Shown piece after piece: positions 48,997 to 54,766 of a DNA stretch of 60,690 nt (its first letter is position 1; each line of letters starts with the position of its first letter). The stretch comes from Candidatus Poribacteria bacterium (GTDB lineage Bacteria; Poribacteria; WGA-4E; WGA-3G): positions 1-60,690 of the forward strand of contig JAPOZO010000102.1 of assembly GCA_026706025.1 (NCBI GenBank), in the 5' to 3' direction. The notes under the pieces were generated by a model. It saw only the letters and a program-made list of their open reading frames with translations, was not told the DNA's origin and ran no database searches. The translations under genes were made by a program, and so were the position numbers.

Positions 48997-50301
48997 ATGC
49001 ACCTATTACAACGCGACGAATTCATTAAAGCCAGCCCAGCGATCCAGATTCAAGGAAAAATCACGCACTTACAACGCCGTGCTTGGAACGTCTTACTCGC
49101 TAACGCTTATGACGAACTCCCGAATAGAGAGATGCATCGCGTCAGTGTTGTCGAACTCTCTGAAAAGTTAGGTTTTAACAGCAGGAATCAAGAGCATCTT
49201 AAGGATATGCTCAAAGCACTCACCGAGTGCATCGTTGAATGGAATACTTTGGGTAAAGACCAGAAACAGGTCTGGGGCGTTGCCTCGCTGTTAGCATCCG
49301 CAGAGATCGAAAAAGGTATCTGCACGTATGCGTTCGCGCCGCATCTGCGATTGAAGCTCTATAACCCGCGCGTTTACGCCAAACTCAACTTAAGATTGCA
49401 GAACCGATTTTCGGATAGACATGCGCTGATCCTCTGGGAGCTCTGTTTCGACTATTTCGATTCCGCTCGCGATCACGGCGAAACGCCGTTCATACCGCTT
49501 GAAAAGTTTAGAGAGCTCATGGGTGTGGCGGGTGATGTATATCCAGCCTTCAAAACGTTGAACCAGTGTGTCATCAAACCGGCGGTCAAAGAGATTAACG
49601 CCTTGACGAACTTTTTTGTTGAGGTCGAACAGAAACGCGATGGCCGTAAAATCGGTTTCCTGAAATTCAGGATCTCGCGGTTAAGAGAACTCACAACTGT
49701 TGATGCCACGCAAGAGCCCCTATTTCCCGATATTGAGGACCTGCCTGCGGTTGCGAACGCGTTAGTCCAAGCCGGTGTGGCGCGCCGAGAGGCAGAGAAA
49801 ATCGCTAACCAGGAATGGAAAGCCGTAGATGCGGATGTACAATTGGGAGCCTATAAGGATTTTGAGGCATACATCCAAGAGAAGATAGGGCTTGCGAAAC
49901 AGGCAGCGGGTGTGAAAAATATCGGCGGCTTCATCATCCAAGCCGTCCGGGAAAACTATCAGGATCCGGTCGCGCAAGCCGAGTTTGCGGAACGGAAAGC
50001 GAAAGAACAACAGGCGATGCTCGATGCCTTGGAATCTGAGACTTCGGAGAAAAAGAACGCCCTGCTCCGCCAAGCCGTCCGCACCCACCCCGAACTGCTT
50101 GTGCAGGCGAGTGCGAAAATCCAGTCGCACATCATCCGTAAACGCCTCGAAGGCTATGCGTCCCTCGAAGAAGCCTATCGAGAAGGCGGGATGGTCACGG
50201 CGGAGATCAACGCCATTCTCGCTGAAGAGTTCTGTGTCGATCTGCTTGCCCCTGTCTACGAAGCCTATGCAGCGGAAAAGGCGCGGATCCTTGAGATGTA
50301 G
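48997..50301 (+). CDS. Rep_3-family plasmid replication initiator
   Basis: 434 residues. The first ~230 residues show two winged-helix domains typical of Rep_3 initiators (ITHLQRRAWNVLLANAYDEL; FSDRHALILWELCFDYFDSA; IPLEKFRELMGVAGDVYPAF). The later part is a helical, charged extension with WKAVDADVQLGAYKDFEAYI, as in larger Rep proteins. It would bind the iterons upstream and load helicase. It is the main argument that this phage replicates as a plasmid. Confidence 0.92.
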   Translation: MHLLQRDEFIKASPAIQIQGKITHLQRRAWNVLLANAYDELPNREMHRVSVVELSEKLGFNSRNQEHLKDMLKALTECIVEWNTLGKDQKQVWGVASLLASAEIEKGICTYAFAPHLRLKLYNPRVYAKLNLRLQNRFSDRHALILWELCFDYFDSARDHGETPFIPLEKFRELMGVAGDVYPAFKTLNQCVIKPAVKEINALTNFFVEVEQKRDGRKIGFLKFRISRLRELTTVDATQEPLFPDIEDLPAVANALVQAGVARREAEKIANQEWKAVDADVQLGAYKDFEAYIQEKIGLAKQAAGVKNIGGFIIQAVRENYQDPVAQAEFAERKAKEQQAMLDALESETSEKKNALLRQAVRTHPELLVQASAKIQSHIIRKRLEGYASLEEAYREGGMVTAEINAILAEEFCVDLLAPVYEAYAAEKARILEM

Positions 50302-50355: not shown

Positions 50356-50456
50356 AGCAATTTGGGTTAATTTAATATCGTAAAATCTATTTTAGGGTAG
50401 ATATATATTAATTTAATATCGTGAAATCTGTTTTTTTATAGAAAATTTAAAAAAAT

Positions 50457-50486
50457 TTGACTTAATTCTAAATTTTATCGTATAAT
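50457..50486 (+). promoter_or_regulatory. Strong promoter of a noncoding RNA
   Basis: TTGACT (50457-50462), 18 bases, TATAAT (50481-50486), in an AT-rich tract. The predicted start is at about 50493. Confidence 0.85.
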
Positions 50487-50492
50487 TTAAAT

Positions 50493-50640
50493 GTGAGGAA
50501 GATGTTTATTCTCCTCCACAGAAAACAAAAACACCCGTCAACACGCGCTGGCATTACGTTTCAGGGAGTAGGGAACCTTGAAAAACGGATGCGATCGGCG
50601 CGTGTTTCGGGTTAAAGTCCCACCATTTCTTTTTTTTTTC
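50493..50640 (+). ncRNA. Structured noncoding RNA of about 150 nt
   Basis: Downstream of the promoter: a small GAGGA/TCCTC hairpin, then a long stem ACCCG-tc-AACACGCGC (50533-50548) with GCGCGTGTTTCGGGT (50598-50612), enclosing an inner arm with CGTTT/AAACG around CAGGGAGTAGGGAACC. A run of T's (about 50627-50639) follows 15 bases later and could end transcription. There is no open frame of note. No known RNA family was recognised. The strong promoter and compensated stem make it a good RNA gene candidate, perhaps an antisense or regulatory RNA of the plasmid. Confidence 0.7.
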
Positions 50641-50747: not shown

Positions 50748-50776
50748 TTGACAAATCTTTTTTTAGTGCGTATAAT
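50748..50776 (+). promoter_or_regulatory. Perfect consensus promoter of the small HTH gene
   Basis: TTGACA (50748-50753), 17 bases, TATAAT (50771-50776). It drives the gene starting at 50830. Confidence 0.9.
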
Positions 50777-50829: not shown

Positions 50830-51042
50830 ATGCCGAAACGAGTCAGTGCGAAGCAACTATTAATAGCTTGCCGGATGTCATTTGATGGCAAAAGCAACCG
50901 CGAAATCGCGAACGCGTTGGACTTCAGCGAGACAACTGTATCGAATTGGCGGAAGTCTGAGGTCTGGCAGGAATTCGAGGCGGAACTCATTGATGCCTAC
51001 AAACAGCAAGTCTTGAACCTCGAAAGTGTAACCCCATCGTAA
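50830..51042 (+). CDS. Small helix-turn-helix protein
   Basis: 70 residues. SFDGKSNREIANALDFSETT then VSNWRKSEVW is a helix-turn-helix. A GGGGG ribosome site precedes the ATG. The fold is like those at 29885 and 31791. Its perfect promoter suggests high expression. Confidence 0.75.
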   Translation: MPKRVSAKQLLIACRMSFDGKSNREIANALDFSETTVSNWRKSEVWQEFEAELIDAYKQQVLNLESVTPS

Positions 51043-51217: not shown

Positions 51218-54200
51218 ATGTCAAATCGATTGACATTTTCCTTAGCAAGTTTAATTCTAATGTTCGCTTTCGTGGCGATGCCCGTAATGGCGCACGATAA
51301 TGCCGGTGGTGATGATGCAACCACTCCGCGTCCGCATTCGCATCCATTGACAGAAGGCCTTGATGCAGCTACAGATGCTGCTGATGTAACAGCAGGCAGA
51401 GCAGGAACAGCAGTTACAACACACGATACTCACCCCACAGTGATGTCCATCGTAGCGACACCTGATGCGGCGGACGCGACCCTTCGAACAAGCGACGGAC
51501 GGGATGTCATACTCCTTGATTCCACTGCAACTGACCCTACTGCTTTGACGATAGCGGCGGGTGGTGGTACCGGTGTCTTTAACGTGAGAGTCACGTTTAG
51601 TGGAACGTTGGCTTCTGATGCTGTGTTAGCATCTAGCGAAGTTACGGTCAGAGCCCGGAAACCTGATGGAACACCTATTACTACTGGAGTTTCCGTCGGT
51701 AGTACTGTTACTGGTGATGCTGGGCAAAATGTATTTGATGTGCCAATTGAAGTCACTGCTGATGCTTATTGGGATGCTACTGCTACCCCTGCTGCGTCCA
51801 ACTTGCCTATAGAGGTATTTATAGATGTAGCCAGAGATGCGGTGGCGACTGGAACAACAAGTAATGCGCATGGCGTAACACTGAATCCTGCATCCAGTGA
51901 TGCTTATATGTCTGATTCAATGACGAAGTTCACTATCGTGGATGAGCTTGATGCTGAAAACATGCGTCCGACCCTTACTATTAGTGATACCACACCTGAA
52001 CCTACAGCTGCAGTAACAACCGGCTCGTTTAACATCATGTATACCACTATGGATGCCGATATGGACACAGTTACGGTTGCAGCGGAAGTTACTAGTGTGA
52101 TTCCGGCAGGTGCGATGGCGCATTATAGTGTTGATACATCTGTAGACGGTACGGTTACAGTGATGCAGGCGATGCCTACTGCCACTATGATGACTGTTCC
52201 AGGGGCAGCTGTTACGGTGACCCTAACACCCAGCGATTCTGCAGCTGGAATGCCTGTAACGTTTAACATTCTCTTTGCTGAGGCAACGTATACTGATCCT
52301 GGCGAGACTGATATGGGCGACATGCTTGAAGCCGGTGATTACCTCGTTGTTGTCCGAGATGCGTCTATGGTAACATCGGGCTACTTCGGTGCCAACGGCC
52401 CCTCGATGGCTGATGTGCACGTATGGGCTGATATGCCGAACCTGGAAAGACTGTTTAGCGTAGGCGGTAAACTGGAACTGACTGTTACAGGTGCGACAAC
52501 TCGACAGGTCGTTATCAGCGAAGTTATGTGGGCTGTTGATAACCGGTTAATCGGTGACGATGCGTATGACGATGGCCAGTGGATTGAAATCCATAACCGC
52601 ACATCCGGTGATGGTGCTAAAGACTTTGCTATTTCTGGTATAACGCTTAATGCAGCAGAAGGACGTTTTCCTACACCTACCACGACTGACTGGCTCATGA
52701 ACACGCCTTCTGGTGATAGATGGACAGTTCCTGGTCAGAGCGGTAACAGCGGTGATGCTGAAGGTGCTGGTAAAGTGGAATTCGTCTCCGTGTGGCGTAA
52801 CAACTACGGTGAACCCGGTCATCAATCGAATCGCTGGACGGCATCCTCAGAGTTGTATAAACCGAACCATAAAGGCACGCCTGGTATGAAAGAGCGTCCT
52901 AACTTCGGTGGTGTTACACCAACGCCCGCGAACCGTGGACCCGTTATCTTTAACGAGATTTCCAACAACGACAATCCAGCCTACGAATGGATTGAACTTC
53001 GTAACGTCACTGACGGTGAAGTTAACCTCAAAAACTGGGAAATCACGATTGTAACCTCTAAAGGTGCAAACCAAGCCAACCATAACGCTGTTGAGTTCAT
53101 TCAGTTCCCGAATGCTGACCGGAAGATGGCAGCTGGCAGTCTCCTGCTTGTCGTGGCGACAGATCCGAGAAGCGATGACGATCATCCGTTACAGACAGGT
53201 TGGGATATTACGAAGGGCGCAGGTGATCAGATCAACGGTGTCAACCAGGAAACATCCCCACGTTATATCGTTCTTCCGTTCAAGACCGCCAAAGGGAAAG
53301 GTACTACCACCGATCTAAACGAAAGCGGTATGCCGGATGATGGCGAATTCGTGTTGATCCTGCGAAATCGCGGTGATCGGACCAGTTCCAACAACGATAA
53401 CAACGTCCGTGATGTCGCAGGTTATGTGCCAGGTAGAGCTTTGGCTACTAATGATGACGCTACAGGTCTATGGCCCCTAGCCAATTTCCCGCAACCGAAT
53501 TGGGATAACAATAAGTTAGCAGCGGGAATAGTTCAAAAGCGTGCGTTTGCTGATATTGATGGTACGAAGTCGAAAGACAAGAACCAGAACGACAAAACAG
53601 CTTTCCGTGATGATAATAACCGTTGGACGGGTATCGGTTATAGAAGGAATGCCGCTGCAAATAATCAGAACGGCGGAACACCTGGGTATCCGAATGGTGC
53701 CCTGCAAAGTAATGAGACCGAGGCAGGCGCGGAACCTGTGATTATCAGCGAAGTTATGTACGCCACGGGTAGCCGTGCGAACATACCGCAGTGGATTGAA
53801 CTCTACAACACGTCAAAAACAGTCGGTGTTAATTTAGACGGTTGGCGCGTTACTATCATCAACCATGACCAAGATGTCGGTGGTGAGACATTCGCCGGTG
53901 ATCTGAATAAGGATTACGCTATTAATGGTAAGATCCCACCGGGTCAGACGTTCCTGCTTGTCGCCTATCCGGGTCGTGATGATACGAAACTCCCAGACGA
54001 ACGTATCGAAACGCTCCGTGGCAACCGCGGTGAATTGATCCTGAGTCAGTATGGCTTTGAGATCACCCTGCTAACGAAGGGCAAGGACAATAAGGACGCG
54101 AATCGTAAACTGGCTGATAGAGTCGGTAACCTCGCTGCTGTCGCAGAAGGTGCGGGTCGTGTCCGTAGAAATCCACAATCCTACGAAGATCCTGCTTGGA

Positions 54201-54766
54201 TGTTGCCAATGGGTACGAATGACGATGGTGATCGTATCTCTATTGTCCGTGCTTCTATAATGGGCGATCCTATCAATGGGCAGCTGTCAGGTGCCTGGAA
54301 TAGGTTTGATATGAGCGGGCAGTTCGTTTCAACGCTTGACGCGACCTCCTATGGTCACGGAACTGATCTCAGTTCCCCAGGTCATACCGTTGGTGGTGTG
54401 CTCCCCGTATCGCTTTCTAAGTTCCGTCCGGAACGGATGAAAGACACTGGCGCAGTCGTTATCCGTTGGGTCACCGAATCTGAATTGAACAACGCTGGAT
54501 TCAACATCCTGCGGAGTGAAACGCGAGACGGTGAGTTCACGAAGCTTAACACGAAATTGATCGCAGGTCAAGGCACGACGAGTGAGCGTACGACTTACGA
54601 GTATGCCGATACATCTGCGAAACCCAATGTCGTCTACTACTACCAGATCCAAGATGTTTCCCTTGACGGTCAGGTTCAGACCTTGCGTCAGAGCCGTCTG
54701 AAAGGGAACGTCACAGCGGCTGGTAAACTCACAACGACATGGGGTGAACTAAAAGCGTTGCAGTAA
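51218..54766 (+). CDS. Secreted lamin-tail-domain surface protein
   Basis: 1182 residues with a signal peptide (residues 1-25, ...MPVMA-HDNA) and a GGAGGA ribosome site. The first ~420 residues are Thr/Asp/Ala-rich Ig-like repeats. Lamin-tail domains follow at about 430-520 (RQVVISEVMWAVDNR), 570-690 (PVIFNEISNNDNPAYEWIEL) and 840-960 (PVIISEVMYATGSRANIPQW). The end (VSLSKFRPERMKDTGAVVIR, NAGFNILRSE) is a fibronectin-like or sorting domain. Such proteins are abundant in Poribacteria-like genomes. On a phage-plasmid it probably changes the lysogen's surface. It is far larger than its neighbours. Confidence 0.85.
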   Translation: MSNRLTFSLASLILMFAFVAMPVMAHDNAGGDDATTPRPHSHPLTEGLDAATDAADVTAGRAGTAVTTHDTHPTVMSIVATPDAADATLRTSDGRDVILLDSTATDPTALTIAAGGGTGVFNVRVTFSGTLASDAVLASSEVTVRARKPDGTPITTGVSVGSTVTGDAGQNVFDVPIEVTADAYWDATATPAASNLPIEVFIDVARDAVATGTTSNAHGVTLNPASSDAYMSDSMTKFTIVDELDAENMRPTLTISDTTPEPTAAVTTGSFNIMYTTMDADMDTVTVAAEVTSVIPAGAMAHYSVDTSVDGTVTVMQAMPTATMMTVPGAAVTVTLTPSDSAAGMPVTFNILFAEATYTDPGETDMGDMLEAGDYLVVVRDASMVTSGYFGANGPSMADVHVWADMPNLERLFSVGGKLELTVTGATTRQVVISEVMWAVDNRLIGDDAYDDGQWIEIHNRTSGDGAKDFAISGITLNAAEGRFPTPTTTDWLMNTPSGDRWTVPGQSGNSGDAEGAGKVEFVSVWRNNYGEPGHQSNRWTASSELYKPNHKGTPGMKERPNFGGVTPTPANRGPVIFNEISNNDNPAYEWIELRNVTDGEVNLKNWEITIVTSKGANQANHNAVEFIQFPNADRKMAAGSLLLVVATDPRSDDDHPLQTGWDITKGAGDQINGVNQETSPRYIVLPFKTAKGKGTTTDLNESGMPDDGEFVLILRNRGDRTSSNNDNNVRDVAGYVPGRALATNDDATGLWPLANFPQPNWDNNKLAAGIVQKRAFADIDGTKSKDKNQNDKTAFRDDNNRWTGIGYRRNAAANNQNGGTPGYPNGALQSNETEAGAEPVIISEVMYATGSRANIPQWIELYNTSKTVGVNLDGWRVTIINHDQDVGGETFAGDLNKDYAINGKIPPGQTFLLVAYPGRDDTKLPDERIETLRGNRGELILSQYGFEITLLTKGKDNKDANRKLADRVGNLAAVAEGAGRVRRNPQSYEDPAWMLPMGTNDDGDRISIVRASIMGDPINGQLSGAWNRFDMSGQFVSTLDATSYGHGTDLSSPGHTVGGVLPVSLSKFRPERMKDTGAVVIRWVTESELNNAGFNILRSETRDGEFTKLNTKLIAGQGTTSERTTYEYADTSAKPNVVYYYQIQDVSLDGQVQTLRQSRLKGNVTAAGKLTTTWGELKALQ

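Follow-up and report, generated by a model that had tools for sequence, protein, structure and literature searches.

We describe here R, a structured RNA element encoded in a 60,690-nt stretch of DNA (hereafter the window) that is one entire contig, G000:C102 (GenBank JAPOZO010000102.1), of a Poribacteria draft genome. Poribacteria, a phylum of sponge symbionts without cultured members, encode large families of secreted lamin-tail-domain (LTD) proteins. R lies between the gene for a Rep3-type replication initiator and that for a small helix-turn-helix (HTH) protein with a perfect promoter of its own, as an initial annotation of the sequence had stated. Judging from sequence comparisons, R is probably a genuine small RNA (sRNA) that acts in trans as an antisense regulator and masks the ribosome-binding site of T, a leader encoded elsewhere in the same genome. 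The features of the locus, all on the plus strand, are as follows.

48997..50301, +, gene for the Rep3-type replication initiator (Pfam E 1.9e-17), upstream of R
50457..50486, +, sigma-70-type promoter of R, TTGACT-N18-TATAAT, in a conserved module AAATTTGACTTAAT..CGTATAAT of 15 homologous copies
50493..50622, +, structured RNA R (approximate 3' end), a full covariance-model match
50493..50519, +, 5' hairpin of R (hairpin 1), whose 3' arm contains the anti-Shine-Dalgarno sequence UCUCCUCC
50506..50533, +, seed of R, UUAUUCUCCUCCACAGAAAACAAAAACA, made up of the hairpin-1 loop, its 3' arm and the single-stranded linker
50520..50532, +, unpaired A-rich linker of R, from folding
50533..50612, +, long interrupted stem of R, including an inner arm and a conserved apical loop, GUAGGGAACC, from folding and covariance
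50630..50639, +, run of ten T, specific to this copy and possibly a terminator tail
50748..50776, +, promoter of the HTH gene matching the consensus at 12/12 positions
50830..51042, +, gene for a small HTH protein (70 aa), also found 3' of R in other genomes
51218..54766, +, gene for a secreted LTD protein of the MSNRLTFSLASL family, the downstream partner in R cassettes

The promoter proposed for R in the initial annotation is present, with TTGACT at 50457-50462, an 18-nt spacer, and TATAAT at 50481-50486 (11/12 consensus positions). By count, promoter-like matches are as frequent as expected by chance (2 observed vs 3.0 in shuffled sequences), and we regard the promoter of R as credible because the same promoter is kept in the 15 homologous copies. 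Folding likewise bore out the proposed short hairpin followed by a long stem with an inner arm: the folding energy is -49.2 kcal/mol, with z scores of -3.7 over 148 nt and -5.5 over 126 nt, and none of the shuffled sequences was as stable. In the predicted folds the linker is unpaired and the 3' arm of the seed lies within the short hairpin. The proposed T run exists, but it is not conserved in the flanks of the R homologs. The statement that the region has no coding frame needs a qualification, in that a 40-aa frame with a GTG start spans 50493-50615, but this frame is broken across the homologs by insertions and deletions of 1-2 nt, and by an early stop in G027. A short protein from a frame of 25-40 aa was therefore rejected as the product of R. 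No Rfam family reached its gathering score in a scan of the whole window, in agreement with the view that R belongs to no known RNA class; the sole family at E<=5 for R was STnc410 (RF02060; 12.3 bits, E 3.3, gathering score 50), which is a chance match.

Blast and covariance-model searches found R in 14 of 38 genomes from a single Poribacteria genus, with as many as four loci per genome, and 47 other genomes of the phylum gave no match. There were no matches among the phages and plasmids of IMG/VR and PLSDB, and a search of genome contigs gave matches in Poribacteria only. Six base pairs are changed on both sides among the homologs, with 95.3% of cells paired, whereas slid alignments gave 1-3 such pairs and at most 51% paired, and shuffled alignments gave a mean of 2.9 (9/500 shuffles were as high). 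The initial annotation had named compensatory changes in the 50533/50598 stem as the decisive check. The outer stem (helix 2) shows one-sided variation only (C-G, U-G and similar), and the two-sided changes all fall within the inner helices 3 and 4. Because the inner helices covary and the sole frame is broken, these alignments support the assignment of R to a noncoding RNA family new to Rfam, as had been suspected. Solo copies of R (L055, L057, L058, L059, L060, and L061) stand at unrelated chromosomal sites with decayed or missing promoters, and in some of them the seed is still intact.

A small HTH gene, a gene for a large secreted LTD protein, or both usually follow R on the same strand within a few kb; one or both are found 3' of nearly every promoter-bearing copy, the exception being G016:C105. 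In addition to lamin tail domains, the LTD proteins of these cassettes share a signal peptide that is conserved (MSNRLTFSLASL...). Extra copies of the R promoter module precede the HTH or LTD genes in several cassettes, which suggests that the cassette genes may be under common control. Tandem modules (TTTGACTTAAT..GTATAAT) were seen 5' of HTH and LTD genes in L045, L046, L047, L049, L050, and L054. Inverted half copies of R were also observed (G000:C47:383-506, G020:C26:301-402, and L056:8349-8405, as well as beside R in G025:C26). In G000:C47 and G020:C26 the half copy lies 3' of the HTH gene with a terminator-like hairpin behind it, which would make the 3' end of the HTH mRNA antisense to R.

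The initial annotation implied a link of R to plasmids, and the Rep3 gene does precede R in the window, L051, and L053, as would be the case for a copy-number control RNA acting on the adjacent rep gene. These are, however, the only such copies among the main ones; most R copies have no rep gene nearby, R is chromosomal in a complete genome, and there are further chromosomal copies. R is not antisense to rep, and its duplex with the rep leader (-15.9 kcal/mol) is ordinary against a control mean of -14.5. Because rep precedes R in those three copies only, we do not take R for a plasmid-control RNA and give this explanation hardly any credence.

A different partner emerged from the genome itself. 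The reverse complement of R 50506-50533 occurs once more in the window genome, in the Shine-Dalgarno (SD) block of leader T (G000:C45:17770-17796, minus strand), where 26 of the 28 positions are complementary to the seed of R. This antisense relation between two contigs of the same genome (R at C102, T at C45) was absent from the initial annotation. The SD block of T reads GTTTTTGTTTTCTAAGGAGGAGAATAA, with an ATG a few bases downstream. The best match to R in this genome, other than R itself, is the antisense of this SD, and a near-exact pattern search returned R copies and T only.

The R-T duplex, at -33.7 kcal/mol, ranked first against 231 control leaders, of which the runner-up gave -24.4. 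The net dimer energy is -21.2, whereas shuffled T gives -2.1 (sd 1.1); the long stem of R is retained in the dimer. The T leaders of R-positive genomes gave net values of -23 to -31, compared with a mean of -3.6 (sd 2.4, minimum -12.9) for 150 SD-bearing control leaders, which are a sample and not a whole-genome interaction scan. With R, the ortholog of this leader from an R-negative genome gave -8.9, and T orthologs in R-negative genomes pair with R no better than other LTD leaders do. One Hfq domain match over the cut-off, a candidate, was found in the window genome.

T, a chromosomal locus that is single-copy and mostly syntenic, comprises a promoter of its own (TTGACA-N17-TACAAT), a leader hairpin that is conserved, and the SD block. 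The leader is ~250 nt long and lies at G000:C45:17729-18170 (minus strand); the loci L129, L132, L134-L136, and L141 represent it. In G000, G020, and G025 a full-length frame (756-1095 aa) follows T, and the products in G020 and G025 carry LTD domains. The product in G000 has no Pfam hit of its own, but it shows 47% identity over 852 aa to the LTD protein of the window, and the last ~130 residues of the two are nearly identical. The pair compared here comprises the plasmid-like gene at window 51218-54766 and the chromosomal gene on G000:C45 (L129:4479-7766). Their near-identical C-termini suggest either gene conversion or a sorting domain that both proteins have at this end. In the remaining R-positive genomes the T frame is lost or cut to the signal peptide, while the promoter, the hairpin, and the block stay; the hairpin (GGTTAGTTCAGAATAGATTTCATCCCTGAATCTGTTC) is 99% conserved, and the leader persists in many genomes after loss of the frame. 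R-negative congeners have a related leader with a different SD block (AGTTTGATTTAAATGGAGGAAAATTA) ahead of LTD genes. A pattern search for a second RNA (R') matching this other block in R-negative genomes gave leaders only and no antisense RNA. The apical arm of R and the 5' part of the T leaders of R-negative genomes are weakly similar, and this candidate relation was dropped, as it gave no significant covariance-model hit.

In the seven genomes in which T has no start codon, the T block is 97% conserved, while the next 60 nt are at 71-72%, the 12 nt immediately upstream of the block are at 90%, and the 84-nt stretch ahead of these is at 71%. Within the R seed, conservation is 99% and 94% in the paired parts and 73% at the central position, which is mismatched in the duplex. 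Double changes restore R-T pairs in G027 (A-U to U-A) and in G036 (U-A to A-U), the changes of T in G006, G014, and G036 retain G-U pairs, and mismatches occur in G003, G004, and G016. R and T pair at 26.0 of 28 positions within genomes and at 25.5 between genomes; a permutation test that ignores relatedness gave p values of 0.006 (pairs) and 0.034 (energy). Of the 14 R-positive genomes, 13 have the T block, and in the remaining one (G024) the contig stops within T. Outside the clade, R-negative genomes have a different SD block in the orthologous T leader. G002 belongs to the same clade but lacks R, and there is no T in the 1.5 kb 5' of its MKPY gene, which is usually next to T.

Several observations weigh against an antisense role for R, and they have to be set beside this evidence. 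In a tree of the T-neighbouring gene, R and the T block fall in one clade of 16 genomes and have essentially one origin as far as the tree indicates, so their co-occurrence is statistically weak; the relatedness ignored by the permutation test belongs here as well. The double changes are two only, the pairing in G004 and G005 is weaker than in their relatives, and no conserved terminator was found among the R homologs. The T reading frame is lost in ~10 genomes, so translational repression is not what keeps the block there and cannot explain its retention. The inverted half copies in G000:C47, G020:C26, and G025:C26, together with the T block of 2 of the 24 R-negative genomes (G011 and G029, in which R is not detectable), would also fit another history. 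R could be a real structured RNA whose long stem is functional, in protein binding or otherwise, while its match to T is the relic of an inverted copy of an LTD leader that no longer pairs; indeed, the reverse complement of the R 5' end resembles the T leader minus its start-codon stretch. A relic would not be expected to end where this similarity ends, at the borders of the accessible segment of R without entering the long stem, nor to leave the startless block conserved while its flanks drift, the seed as the most conserved part of R with the mismatched centre as its most variable, and pairing twice restored. We therefore consider a relic unlikely, albeit the strongest of the competing explanations, and retain the antisense reading.

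The persistence of frameless T leaders bears on a further explanation, in which T, where its frame is lost, is a noncoding decoy that titrates R, and the regulated targets are the LTD genes of R's own cassette family. The retention of the T promoter, the leader hairpin, and the block in genomes without the start codon would accord with such titration, and in R-positive genomes the LTD leaders of the cassettes do pair with R at net values of -8 to -13 kcal/mol, in or close to the top 5% of the controls. However, the LTD leaders of genomes lacking R give similar values (-5 to -12). Because they pair about as well, we regard this moderate pairing as the baseline of the family, and the LTD gene immediately downstream of R was rejected as its target on the same comparison. 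T moreover has its full-length frame in G000, G020, and G025. A decoy of this kind with cassette targets seems to us quite improbable; the retained frameless leader may reflect a decoy role or unfinished decay.

Returning to R as an antisense regulator of T, we picture the following course of events. R would be transcribed from its own sigma-70 promoter, usually within a cassette of HTH and secreted LTD genes, and its accessible 28 nt (hairpin-1 loop, 3' arm, and A-rich linker) would pair with the SD block of T in the cell. Pairing would open hairpin 1 alone and leave the long stem of R as it is, and the duplex, covering T from its SD to a few bases short of the AUG, would block 30S loading. 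We infer that translation of T is repressed in this way, and that the biological purpose may be for an LTD gene on a cassette or plasmid to silence its chromosomal paralog. A more elaborate scheme, which we put forward only tentatively and hold to be rather doubtful as a whole, is a two-RNA system of surface-protein exclusion, in which the sRNA of a plasmid or chromosomal cassette silences the paralog behind T, and the T that is frameless in many species is kept as a stand-alone partner RNA, acting either as a decoy or as a regulator of R.

Two other observations on the window may be recorded. Two 27-nt direct repeats (TTAATTTAATATCGTAAAATCTATTTT, 93% alike), whose starts are 41 nt apart, lie at 50367-50434 in an A+T-rich stretch of the interval between rep and R, and are possible iterons or binding sites. 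The contig ends (1-271 and 60420-60690) are 271 identical bases inside a repeat; the contig may be circular, or the assembly may have ended in a repeat.

No regulatory RNA of Poribacteria was described in the literature searched, which did not extend to subscription journals. If our reading is correct, R would represent a new family of sRNAs, one whose target is identified and through which one paralogous surface-protein gene silences another, in the window genome probably across replicons, and T would be an mRNA leader that survives its gene, apparently owing to its pairing with an RNA. Trans-encoded sRNAs that mask the SD are well known, e.g., MicF, RybB, and SgrS of enterobacteria. R resembles them in being short and structured, with its own sigma-70 promoter and a conserved single-stranded seed, and in a pairing that covers the SD of a distantly encoded mRNA for a surface or secreted protein. 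Unlike them, R has an unusually long complementarity (28 nt, with one fixed central mismatch) and no conserved intrinsic terminator; its cassette also encodes a target paralog, and the leader of the target persists where the gene itself is lost. With the antisense RNAs of plasmids and transposons (ctRNAs and RNA-OUT), R shares a strong constitutive-type promoter, a stem-loop, a long complementarity over the ribosome-binding site, and the presence of a rep gene on the replicon; unlike these, its target is a distant chromosomal locus and does not overlap it on the opposite strand, and, unlike ctRNAs, R is not plasmid-specific and has no match to the rep leader. The novelty lies in the RNA family, in the phylum, and in a connection between paralogs that encode secreted proteins, while the kind of mechanism is already known from these systems.
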